From contig NZ_CANNGP010000001.1 in NCBI RefSeq assembly GCF_947504105.1, forward strand, positions 124,001 through 188,000: 64,000 nt of DNA. The letters run 5' to 3'. Position numbers and translations under genes: made by a program. This stretch comes from an uncultured Tateyamaria sp. Lineage in GTDB: Bacteria > Pseudomonadota > Alphaproteobacteria > Rhodobacterales > Rhodobacteraceae. Every line of letters begins with the position of its first letter. Position 1 is the first letter of the stretch. The notes under the pieces are model-generated. The model was not told the DNA's origin, ran no database searches, and saw only the letters and a program-made list of their open reading frames with translations. Positions 13,161 through 56,922 of the stretch are shown here, piece after piece.

Positions 13161-14708
13161 ATGCAAATGAACGACCAATCACCCTCTCGCTCTGGCGGCC
13201 GGGCTGCTCGCCGCGCCGCGCGCGCCACCGCCCTCCCCGACCATCTGCGCCCGGTGCGCCCCGGCCTTGAAGGCGGGCGCTACAATCCACTGACCGACGC
13301 AGAGGTTCAGCGCATCCACACGGCTGCACTCAACGCTCTCGAAACCATCGGTCTCGCCGACGCTCCACCGTCAGGTGTGGAGTACCTGACCAATGCAGGC
13401 GCGATCCTGGGCGAAGATGGGCGCATTCGTTTCCCTCGCGCACTTGTCGAAGACACCATTGCGCGCGCGAACAGATCCATCACACTATGCAGCCGCGACG
13501 GCAAGCACGACCTCGGCCTCAGCGGCTCACGCGTCCATTACGGCACGGCGGGTGCGGCTGTGCATATGGTCGATATTGACGGACGGAACTACCGCGACAG
13601 CACAGTGCAGGACCTGCACGACGCGGCGCGTATATGCGATGTGCTCGACAACATTCACTTCTGTCAGCGGCCGATGATTTGCCGTGACATCCCCGACACG
13701 GTCGAGATGGAGTACAACTCGGTCTACGCTTGCGTATCGGGCACAACCAAACATATCGGGACCAGCTTTTCCGAACCGCATTGCGTGGCTCCGGCCGTCG
13801 AAATGCTGCACATGATTGCAGGCGGGGAAGACGCCTGGCGCGCCCGGCCCTTCGTCTCCAATTCGAACTGCTTCGTTGTCCCGCCAATGAAATTCGCGTC
13901 AGAAAGCTGCCAGGTGATGGAAGAATGCATCAAGGCTGGACTGCCCGTCCTGCTCTTGTCGGCAGGAATGAGCGGGGCCACTGCTCCCTCGACCATCGCT
14001 GGCGCAATCGTCCAAGCGGTCGCCGAATGTCTCGCTGGCCTGGTCTATGTCAACGCTGTCAAACCGGGTGCGCCAGCCATTTTCGGCACATGGCCCTTCG
14101 GCCTTGACCTGCGCACGGGGGCCATGTCGATCGGATCAGGCGAACAAGCGCTGCTCACGGCGGGCTGCGCACAAATGCACCGCTTCTATGACCTACCGGG
14201 TGGGGCCGCCGCCGGGGCGTCCGACAGCAAGATGCCCGACATGCAGGCCGGATGGGAACAGATGTGTTCCAACGTCATGGCGGGCCTGTCTGGACTGAAC
14301 ATGGTGTATGAAGCGGCGGGCATGCATGCCTCGCTTCTGGGCTTCTGCCACGAAAGCCTGATCCTGAGCGATGACATCATCGGCCAGGCCCTGCGCTGCA
14401 CGCGTGGGATCGAGGTGACAGATGAAACGCTGGCTCTCGACCAGATGGCCGATGTCTGCATGAATGGCCCCGGCCACTATCTTGGCACGGAACAGACCCT
14501 CTCGCGGATGCAATCCGATTGCGTCTATCCCAGTTTCGGCGACCGCACATCGCCCAAGGAATGGGCAGAGCTGGGCAAACCGGATCTATTGGAAAAGGCC
14601 ACCGCCCGCAAAATAGACATCCTTGTGACACGCCCCGCAGCAGGCTTTGCCAAGGATTTGGACGTGGATATCCGGAACAGGTTCAACATCCACCTTCCGC
14701 CATACTGA
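13161..14708 (+). CDS. Trimethylamine methyltransferase (MttB) superfamily, non-pyrrolysine
   Basis: The 515-residue protein belongs to the MttB superfamily: a TIM barrel with GTAGAAVHMVD near residue 135, HIGTSFSEPHCVAPAVEM near 200, GTWPFGLDLRTGAMSIGSGE near 315 and the C-terminal NRFNIHLPPY. No in-frame TAG is present, so it lacks pyrrolysine. Studied non-Pyl relatives demethylate quaternary amines such as glycine betaine onto a corrinoid protein. No corrinoid protein, methyltransferase or transporter partner is adjacent, so the substrate is open. Starts at 13161 and 13167 are both possible; neither has a strong ribosome-binding site. Confidence 0.85.
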   Translation: MQMNDQSPSRSGGRAARRAARATALPDHLRPVRPGLEGGRYNPLTDAEVQRIHTAALNALETIGLADAPPSGVEYLTNAGAILGEDGRIRFPRALVEDTIARANRSITLCSRDGKHDLGLSGSRVHYGTAGAAVHMVDIDGRNYRDSTVQDLHDAARICDVLDNIHFCQRPMICRDIPDTVEMEYNSVYACVSGTTKHIGTSFSEPHCVAPAVEMLHMIAGGEDAWRARPFVSNSNCFVVPPMKFASESCQVMEECIKAGLPVLLLSAGMSGATAPSTIAGAIVQAVAECLAGLVYVNAVKPGAPAIFGTWPFGLDLRTGAMSIGSGEQALLTAGCAQMHRFYDLPGGAAAGASDSKMPDMQAGWEQMCSNVMAGLSGLNMVYEAAGMHASLLGFCHESLILSDDIIGQALRCTRGIEVTDETLALDQMADVCMNGPGHYLGTEQTLSRMQSDCVYPSFGDRTSPKEWAELGKPDLLEKATARKIDILVTRPAAGFAKDLDVDIRNRFNIHLPPY

Positions 14709-55773: not shown

Positions 55774-56679
55774 ATGGACTGGGATAAGTTACGGATATTT
55801 CACGCGGTGGCGGACGCGGGAAGCCTGACGCATGCAGGTGACAAGCTGAATCTCAGCCAATCCGCCGTGTCGCGTCAAATTCGCGGTCTCGAAGAATCGC
55901 TGAACGCTACCCTGTTCCACCGCCATGCCCGCGGCCTGATCCTGACCGAACAGGGCGAATTGCTGTTCGACGCCACTACAGCGATGAACAAGCGGCTCGA
56001 CACAGCCAGCGCCCGCATCCGCGACAGCGAAGAAGAGGTGTTTGGCGATCTGCGCGTGACGACCACCATCGGCTTTGGCACGCTGTGGCTGGCCCCACGA
56101 TTGGTCAAGCTTTACGAACAGTACCCCGACCTGCGCGTCGACCTGATGCTGGAAGAACGGGTGCTTGACCTGCCCATGCGCGAGGCCGACGTGGCCATCC
56201 GCATGAAGGAACCCAGCCAGGCGGACCTGATCCGCAAGCGCCTGATGACGGTCAAGATGCAGGTGTTTGCCACACAGGCATACCTTGATGCCAATGGAAC
56301 ACCCGACACGCCCGAAGACCTGATCCATCATCGCCTGATCTGCCAGAACGTAAACTCGGCCCAGGTGGGCGCAGGCAGCAGCCTCGTGCAGCACCTGCTG
56401 ACCTACGAAATGCGATCCCTTCTGACAGTGAACAACTACTTCGGCGTGCTACAGGGCGTGCTTCAGGACCTCGGCCTTGGCATCCTGCCGGACTACGTCT
56501 CGTTGGATGATCCGCGACTCGTCCGCGTGCTACCCGAGATTGAATCTGCCGATGTGCCTGTTTTTTTGGCATACCCGGAAGAATTGCGCCAATCCAAGCG
56601 AATTGCCGCCTTCCGGGACTTCGTGCAGGAAGAGATCATCGCCTACCGTAAGATGCTGAGGCAAAAAGAAAATCCCTGA
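55774..56679 (+). CDS. LysR-type regulator, LsrB/VtlR-like
   Basis: The 301-residue protein has the HTH DKLRIFHAVADAGSLTHAG followed by LSQSAVSRQIRGLEESL and a co-inducer domain. The N-terminus (MDWDKLR-FHAVA-AGS-THAG, LSQSAVSRQI) is as I recall for LsrB/VtlR proteins of Rhizobiales, which activate AbcR-type small RNAs. ATG 55774 is chosen; GTG 55765 is an alternative. A T-N11-A palindrome and a probable small RNA gene lie directly after its stop, and an oxidoreductase gene is divergent. Confidence 0.85.
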   Translation: MDWDKLRIFHAVADAGSLTHAGDKLNLSQSAVSRQIRGLEESLNATLFHRHARGLILTEQGELLFDATTAMNKRLDTASARIRDSEEEVFGDLRVTTTIGFGTLWLAPRLVKLYEQYPDLRVDLMLEERVLDLPMREADVAIRMKEPSQADLIRKRLMTVKMQVFATQAYLDANGTPDTPEDLIHHRLICQNVNSAQVGAGSSLVQHLLTYEMRSLLTVNNYFGVLQGVLQDLGLGILPDYVSLDDPRLVRVLPEIESADVPVFLAYPEELRQSKRIAAFRDFVQEEIIAYRKMLRQKENP

Positions 56680-56700
56680 GATATGCGCAAAATGCATATC
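56680..56700 (+). promoter_or_regulatory. T-N11-A palindrome after the LysR gene
   Basis: GATATGC, GCAAAAT, GCATATC is a perfect 7-bp dyad. T at 56684 and A at 56696 are separated by exactly 11 bases, the LysR-box rule, at the dyad centre. It lies one base past the LysR stop codon. Confidence 0.55.
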
Positions 56701-56844
56701 TGCCATGCCTTTGCGCATGCTGAAAGTGCCTTGATCGAAGGCATGCGCATCCCTACCTCGCCTATTGAAGAAACACGGCGCACATCGCGCCTTCTTCATA
56801 CCTCCCTGTTGGACTTGGCCGAGCTTCGTGCTCGGCCTTTTTTT
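56701..56844 (+). ncRNA. Candidate small RNA downstream of the LysR gene
   Basis: The segment folds: CATGCCTT (56704-56711) pairs with AAGGCATG (56738-56745), then unpaired CCCTACCTC and CCTCCC (56801-56806), which could pair with ribosome-binding sites, then a strong terminator. It has no plausible protein. The exact 5' end is unknown. It may be a separate gene activated by the LysR protein or a 3' untranslated region product. Family unknown; an AbcR-like role is inference. Confidence 0.45.
56817..56844 (+). terminator. Strong rho-independent terminator
   Basis: GGCCGAGC, TTCGT, GCTCGGCC, then seven T. It ends the region after the LysR gene. Confidence 0.93.
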
Positions 56845-56922
56845 GGCTTGTTCGTTGCATCGAATCCTTTTCCGCTGCATGCCAGCAGAAAAACCTATAA
56901 AAACAAGCGTCGCGGGGAACAG

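Follow-up and report, generated by a model that had tools for sequence, protein, structure and literature searches.

The window analysed here is a stretch of 64,000 nucleotides from an uncultured Tateyamaria sp. (Rhodobacteraceae; assembly GCF_947504105.1, contig NZ_CANNGP010000001.1, positions 124,001 to 188,000 of the forward strand), and coordinates given without a further label refer to it. Between 55774 and 56844 it carries a gene for a LysR-type regulator, an inverted repeat that adjoins the stop codon of this gene, a predicted promoter and a predicted small RNA (sRNA) gene ending in an intrinsic terminator. The individual features are as follows:

55774..56679, plus strand: lysR, putative lsrB/vtlR orthologue, 301 aa from ATG 55774 (GTG 55765 is an alternative start)
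56680..56700, no strand assigned: LTTR dyad GATATGC-N7-GCATATC, proposed LsrB recognition site, with T-N11-A at 56684/56696
56694..56706, plus strand: exact GCAT-N3-TG-N3-T, the published LsrB/VtlR consensus, which overlaps the dyad's right arm
56731..56736, plus strand: -35 element TTGATC (CTTGATC), 50 bases past 56681, where the scored 19-mer starts
56754..56759, plus strand: -10 element TACCTC within CCTACCTC, after a 17-base spacer
56765, plus strand: predicted transcription start, 6 bases past the -10 hexamer, aligned with the mapped start of SorY in R. sphaeroides
56766..56844, plus strand: sRNA of about 80 nt, putative SorY orthologue, from Rfam scores and the same position as SorY in the R. 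sphaeroides locus (L084)
56766..56798, plus strand: 5' hairpin of the sRNA, from folding
56799..56816, plus strand: open anti-Shine-Dalgarno core UACCUCCCUGUUGGACUU, between two hairpins
56817..56844, plus strand: intrinsic terminator GGCCGAGC-UUCGU-GCUCGGCC-U7, from sequence and folding

The TGA of lysR occupies 56677-56679 and the dyad begins at the very next base. Its two perfect 7-base arms, the N7 spacer and the distance of 11 bases between T56684 and A56696 are exactly as described in the initial annotation, and the strong terminator placed there at the RNA end is also present, finishing in U7 at 56844. The terminator-ended RNA is, however, shorter than the approximately 145 bases then proposed, because its predicted start lies at about 56765 and not at 56701; a 145-nt transcript beginning at the dyad was rejected in view of the conserved promoter at 56731-56759. 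The stem CATGCCTT/AAGGCATG, which had been attributed to the RNA, does exist in the sequence, but it overlaps the promoter, has by eye no counterpart in relatives and most likely lies outside the RNA. From the two stretches reported as exposed, CCTCCC belongs to the RNA, while CCCTACCTC is the -10 region. What had been taken for the first stem of the RNA and for its first CCTACCTC is promoter.

Two further reading frames cross the region: an antisense one of 116 codons (56530-56880) and one of 839 codons, which opens at ATG 56683, crosses the RNA and continues into MscS, both of them putative. The start of the MscS gene was set by choice at ATG 56923. On the 3' side of the RNA this gene and two small ORFs intervene before purL.

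Among solved structures, the best relative of the window LysR was PDB entry 9hh1 (E 8.6e-70; next 5.4e-27), which is the A. tumefaciens LsrB entry of PMC11975290. When 9hh1 was searched back in the Tateyamaria genome, the window LysR came first (2.7e-70 vs 2.8e-35 for the next protein), with 237.5 bits vs 122.6 for the next LysR. The two proteins have 122 of 299 residues in common (41%), and 46 of the first 62. Judged by this sequence comparison, the window LysR and Agrobacterium LsrB are reciprocal best matches and putative orthologues, which agrees with the LsrB/VtlR-type regulator originally suggested. With the window protein as query (E<=1e-60, no more than 16 candidates scored per genome) 84 of the 144 class genomes searched had one match each, and with 9hh1 as query matches were obtained in 88 of the 144, three genomes having two. 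The gene is intact in R. sphaeroides (L084), in the window and in 79 of 80 related loci, which were fetched by similarity to the window LysR and are therefore no measure of how common the layout is; they are taken here as Rhodobacterales, five of them (L020, L036, L048, L049, L062) being assigned to Alphaproteobacteria only.

The putative LsrB orthologues of this group have features of their own. The trxB motif (C[AV]xCDG, sought in the upstream 1.5-2.5 kb) was found in 0 of 80 Rhodobacterales loci and in 25 of 27 loci from other families of the class; Rhizobiales likewise carry trxB in front of lsrB. None of the 80 Rhodobacterales proteins has C144 or C273, the redox cysteines of A. tumefaciens LsrB; since they are rare in Rhizobiales-order loci too (C144 in 7/30, C273 in 3/30), they are a poor defining feature of LsrB. 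A cysteine at position 190 is found in 77/80 Rhodobacterales proteins, in 1/27 other loci of the class and in 0/30 Rhizobiales-order loci, and may possibly be a lineage-specific sensor residue. In PMC11975290 (2025) LsrB is called unique to Rhizobiales, R. sphaeroides being among the species compared, and the earlier PMC7486931 describes it as conserved in many Alphaproteobacteria. The distribution of putative lsrB orthologues found here disagrees with the Rhizobiales-only claim.

As to the RNA, the Rfam SorX model (RF02784) gave 56.6 bits at 56759-56843, above its cut-off of 46.6, and the SorY model (RF02651) gave 51.4 bits, below its cut-off of 111. The best SorY match in 199 genomes of the family, G046:C4:1632645 with 115 bits, falls in a genome that we took as R. 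sphaeroides and lies 3 bases from the published SorY start at 1,632,642 (PMC6238624); SorY-type matches with E<=0.001 were present in 187 of the 199. The order lysR orthologue, dyad, RNA, purL is common to the R. sphaeroides locus and the window, and on account of this shared position behind the LysR orthologue and before purL the window RNA is taken as the putative orthologue of the published sRNA SorY. Both RNAs also have the same promoter layout, the same CUUCAUACCUCCCUGUUGGACUU stretch and a terminator, but differ in the sequence of the 5' hairpin, which explains the low score of the window RNA on the SorY model.

With SorX the window RNA has the core and the terminator in common, whereas SorX is processed with RNase E from the 3' UTR of ompR-1 (PMC8625941, PMC6238624). 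Three SorX matches above the cut-off are present in the Tateyamaria genome. One of them (L001) stands behind a response-regulator ORF, OmpR-type by eye, which is the SorX setting of R. sphaeroides, and identification of the window RNA as SorX by location was rejected in favour of this copy. The third SorX-type RNA (L003, C26:49204-49268 of the same genome) scored 47.3 bits vs the cut-off of 46.6 and is flanked by ORFs resembling, by eye, an IalB-type protein and a beta-ketoacyl synthase.

For ar15, the AbcR model, there was no match on the window at the gathering cut-off and none listed up to E 10, where a weaker match under the overlapping suhB one would be hidden; AbcR membership was rejected on the cut-off. 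The suhB model itself (RF00519, ar15 clan) matched the window RNA weakly (20.9 bits, E 0.056, below the cut-off of 41), and MmgR/suhB has the CCUCCCU...GACUU stretch followed by a terminator in common with it, at another genomic location. The AbcR-like anti-Shine-Dalgarno RNA that had been expected here is better described as one of the SorX/SorY RNAs, a family in which the members studied act on mRNAs of transporters, than as an ar15 RNA.

An RNA downstream of lysR was identified in 78 of the 80 related loci; it was not found in L038, where the lysR frame is interrupted, or in L080, where 154 nt are left on the contig. The exact 14-mer CCTCCCTGTTGGAC occurs no more than 330 nt past the lysR stop in 72/80 loci and, counted without selection, is present in 76/80; L008 and L045 have an RNA with a variant core, and in L046 the RNA is slightly displaced. 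The 73 distinct RNAs used for structure prediction had been picked by their exact 14-mer core, which makes the core invariant in this set by selection. RNAalifold on alignment A1 gave no supported stem and two unsupported pairs, an effect of MAFFT, which spreads the variable 5' hairpins over the alignment; each RNA was therefore folded alone. A 5' hairpin of at least six pairs was formed in 73/73, and the core was open in 71/73 of these RNAs selected for CCTCCCTGTTGGAC. Set against 60 dinucleotide shuffles each, the 70 distinct 5' domains came out more stable, with a mean z of -3.25, and the window RNA (56766-56844) had a folding z of -5.9.

The genes around the RNA are conserved as well: the IOR gene lies upstream in 79/80 loci and purL is found in 64 of the 71 full-length loci, the MscS gene in only 18 of these 71. 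As the whole neighbourhood is conserved, adjacency alone would prove little within the Rhodobacterales group. The scoring set consisted of 84 sequences (80 loci, R. sphaeroides, two family genomes and the window), 78 of which could be scored. The best dyad agreed in 9-12 of 12 positions in all 78 and in at least 10 positions in 68, while among 1560 mononucleotide shuffles of the same stretches 38 reached 9 positions and one reached 10. From the dyad start to the TTG of the -35 element there are 50 bases in 60/78 sequences and 49 in 17/78; in the one exception, L076, CTTGATC starts 40 bases from the scored dyad site. The -10 element was picked by a score favouring T, A and T at the key positions; in relatives it is mostly CCTAAAT or CCTAATT (TAAAT, TAATT, TATTT), and the consensus of the core promoter across scored relatives is CTTGA(T/A)-N16-CCTAAWT. 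In the Tateyamaria genome of 4.76 Mb, the dyad was the sole exact match to TATGC-N7-GCATA among the matches listed, which are ordered with exact ones at the top. A scan allowing one mismatch yielded 61 places vs 71 for the reversed-pattern control; since this is not above the control, only the perfect site stands out and no regulon is predicted.

In three loci the RNA is displaced from lysR, by 4.0 kb (L051), 1.3 kb (L063) and 2.5 kb (L081), and was found with the covariance model R1 described below. These RNAs are preceded by dyads scoring 10, 10 and 11 of 12 at offsets of 50, 49 and 50, respectively, and in L081 and L051 ORFs lie between lysR and the RNA. The distance from dyad to promoter is fixed also here, which means that the dyad goes with the promoter of the RNA. 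In the window the dyad touches the lysR stop codon, and one could suppose that it serves lysR itself, as a feedback site at the mRNA end, or else MscS, which lies downstream; we regard this as very improbable, because the gap between lysR stop and dyad takes values between -19 and 197 while that from dyad to RNA promoter is constant, and because the MscS gene was found in so few of the full-length loci.

The same data bear on a possible origin of the RNA by cleavage of lysR mRNA at its 3' end, in the way SorX arises from the ompR-1 mRNA, the dyad then being incidental. The position directly behind a regulator gene and the Rfam label SorX speak for such an origin, and read-through from lysR may be a minor source of the RNA. 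Nevertheless, conserved -35 and -10 elements show a constant spacing to the dyad, SorY of R. sphaeroides has its own start and is made without processing (PMC6238624, PMC8307010), and in L051, L063 and L081 the RNA stands together with its promoter 1.3-4 kb behind lysR. Processing from the 3' UTR was rejected on these displaced RNAs with a promoter of their own, and we consider it quite unlikely.

The dyad centre lies about 75 bases before the predicted start, the usual LysR recognition site being at about -65. The published LsrB motifs, GCAT-N3-TG-N3-T and TGCA-N6-GCAT (PMC8844928, PMC10746234), fit the right arm of the dyad and its TGC-N7-GCA layout; the exact GCAT-N3-TG-N3-T consensus is present in only 7/79 Rhodobacterales loci, and the window has such a match.

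Taken together, 56680-56844 is in our judgement probably an independent sRNA gene orthologous to that of SorY, which LsrB would activate via a composite promoter and whose product would block ribosome access to transporter mRNAs. The LsrB orthologue made from the adjoining lysR gene would bind the dyad and activate the sRNA promoter. A stress sigma factor may provide the second input through the RpoH-like core promoter, as suggested by the agreement of this core in the window group, in both spacing and letters, with the RpoH1 consensus of S. meliloti, CTTGAA-N16-CCTATAT (PMC8844928). Exposed between two hairpins, UACCUCCCUGUUGGACUU would pair with AGGGAGG ribosome-binding sites on mRNAs for TRAP and ABC transporter substrate-binding proteins, and uptake would be lowered. 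The orthology, the layout and conservation of the promoter, the structure of the RNA, its family membership and the AGGGAGG contrast described below were all computed here. They confirm what had been observed at this locus and support the circuit of regulator and RNA proposed from it, in which we infer the control by LsrB.

SorY of R. sphaeroides has its own transcription start, binds Hfq and acts on takP mRNA (PMC6238624, PMC8307010, PMC5036791), and it is unprocessed and dependent on RpoHI/RpoHII (PMC8307010, PMC5036791), a dependence that fits the RpoH-like core. PMC8307010 and PMC5036791 ascribe SorY expression to RpoHI/RpoHII, and a search of the two for LysR gave 0 occurrences in each. 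It could accordingly be argued from this dependence, and from the likeness of the core promoter to the RpoH1 consensus quoted in PMC8844928, that RpoHI/RpoHII alone drive the RNA and that the dyad is bound by another protein or is a relic. We hold this to be unlikely, though less so than processing from lysR mRNA: the dyad is kept in 78/78 scored sequences at a fixed distance to the -35 element, it is found also behind lsrB in 14/27 loci of other families and before an AbcR RNA in L160, and LsrB binds the abcR1 promoter of S. meliloti (PMC8844928). Activation by LsrB through the dyad, with RpoH as a further input, accordingly remains our preferred reading.

The binding of LsrB to this promoter and its activation, the signal sensed and the targets in Tateyamaria sp. 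are inferred. On the targets, AGGGAGG at ribosome-site distance from an ATG preceded substrate-binding proteins in 13/42 listed genes, vs 0/20 for AAGGAGG (Fisher p 0.006). The contrast fades when any transporter part is counted (15/42 vs 3/20, p 0.14), and the binding-protein class was chosen after the first list had been seen, so the enrichment of AGGGAGG at substrate-binding-protein genes is a hint and not proof. These counts cover the first 30 of 57 DAGGGAGG sites, the first 30 of 66 AAGGAGG sites and all 19 CAGGGAGG sites; ORFs of less than 100 codons were dropped, and for L191 and L205 the class was assigned on 90 residues. The CAGGGAGG sites belonged to binding-protein genes in 4/16 cases (three DctP, one SBP_bac_1), vs 9/26 for other AGGGAGG sites, and as they are not enriched, a pairing signal, if there is one, would concern CCUCCCU alone. 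Because of the two further SorX-type RNAs in the same genome, AGGGAGG sites are not specific to the window RNA. The takP product is a TRAP binding protein. As the SorY target of R. sphaeroides, takP encodes part of a malate transporter (PMC6238624, PMC8307010). The Tateyamaria genome carries a reaction-centre cytochrome gene, which makes photooxidative stress a plausible setting.

A similar layout was found beyond the Rhodobacterales. The pattern [CT]ATGC-N7-GCAT[AG] occurs no more than 420 nt behind lysR/lsrB in 64/79 Rhodobacterales loci, 14/27 other loci of the class and 6/30 Rhizobiales-order loci, the background per 420 nt being 0.004, 0.018 and 0, respectively. CCTCCC with a T-run at terminator distance is present within 450 nt behind lysR in 71/76 Rhodobacterales loci and within the same distance in 16/27 class loci, vs 0.007 expected per locus, and behind lsrB in 0/30 of L160-L189. 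Most of 18 aligned RNAs from other families have CGTCTCCCAGACG-GAAG-CCTCCCTGTTnnACTTG-terminator in common. None of the 27 best-matching class loci outside Rhodobacteraceae contained an RNA family at the Rfam cut-off, and in 8/8 class loci tested the RNA matched the SorX or suhB model below the cut-off (best E 9.6e-8).

Covariance model R1 was built only from RNAs outside the family of the window. It matched 9/15 class loci not used in its building, 21/27 overall and 18/22 families, as well as 76/80 Rhodobacterales loci, missing L041 and L071, in which the core is present, and L038 and L080. At E<=0.1 there was no R1 match in the 30 Rhizobiales-order loci, those with AbcR included, in 6/27 class loci, or in L148, L149 and L151. 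One match, L074:12539, stands outside the layout and without a dyad. At L139:2593-3190 three consecutive R1 matches lie behind lsrB, like the tandem abcR1/abcR2.

AbcR RNAs were recognised with the ar15 model in 8 of 20 scanned Rhizobiales-order loci. In L160, whose LsrB is 93% identical to 9hh1, two ar15 RNAs follow lsrB and the first is preceded by the dyad CTATGC-N7-GCATAACTGGCATGC, which resembles the window dyad in geometry. A search with RF02345 in 144 class genomes gave no match, but the controls were silent too and the result is uninformative. RF02347 was rejected as an AbcR model, as it is ar45; ar45 RNAs adjoin the speF leader in 4/5 of the loci L111-L115.

The Rhizobiales LsrB/VtlR-AbcR1 system (ar15, RF02345) resembles the window in its putatively orthologous regulator, the RNA gene directly behind it, the TGC-N7-GCA dyad and the CCUCCC stretch, and transporter mRNAs are its reported targets. 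In contrast, the window has an RNA below the ar15 cut-off, no trxB and no C144/C273, and it has one RNA with an RpoH-like core, whereas in S. meliloti LsrB acts on AbcR1 and RpoH1 on AbcR2 (PMC8844928). The region of AbcR1 is described as syntenic across Alphaproteobacteria (PMC8844928). LsrB together with a CCUCCC-type sRNA could be one ancestral device of Alphaproteobacteria, with SorY as the Rhodobacterales branch and AbcR1/2 as a derived or replaced branch in Rhizobiaceae and relatives, a reading to which we give an even chance. Homology of the two RNAs would be putative within it. On the same reading the device would survive in 18/22 other families (27 best-matching class loci) as an RNA below the Rfam cut-offs; most such RNAs have a hairpin with an exposed CUCCC loop, followed by CCUCCCUGUUnnACUU and a terminator.

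SorY and the LsrB-AbcR circuit are each already known. In the literature searched, outside which the original SorY description falls, we found neither SorY behind an LsrB orthologue with an LsrB-type dyad nor related RNAs behind lsrB elsewhere. New here are the proposed lsrB-SorY link, the conserved unit of dyad and promoter, and the related RNAs in other families. SorY thereby likely gains a transcriptional activator, and the LsrB/VtlR-sRNA circuit would now take in Rhodobacterales and further class families, joining two separately studied literatures, on the Rhodobacter stress RNA and on the rhizobial switch. If there was one ancestral device, the work on SorY in photooxidative stress and on AbcR in host interaction would concern the same circuit. 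If LsrB and RpoH share one promoter, the signals split over AbcR1 and AbcR2 in S. meliloti would meet on a single RNA.

Elsewhere in the window, positions 14217-14316 match Rfam PYLIS_3, the pyrrolysine insertion element of mttB, with 45.4 bits, above the cut-off, and at least one gene of the MTTB family (L218) is present in the Tateyamaria genome.
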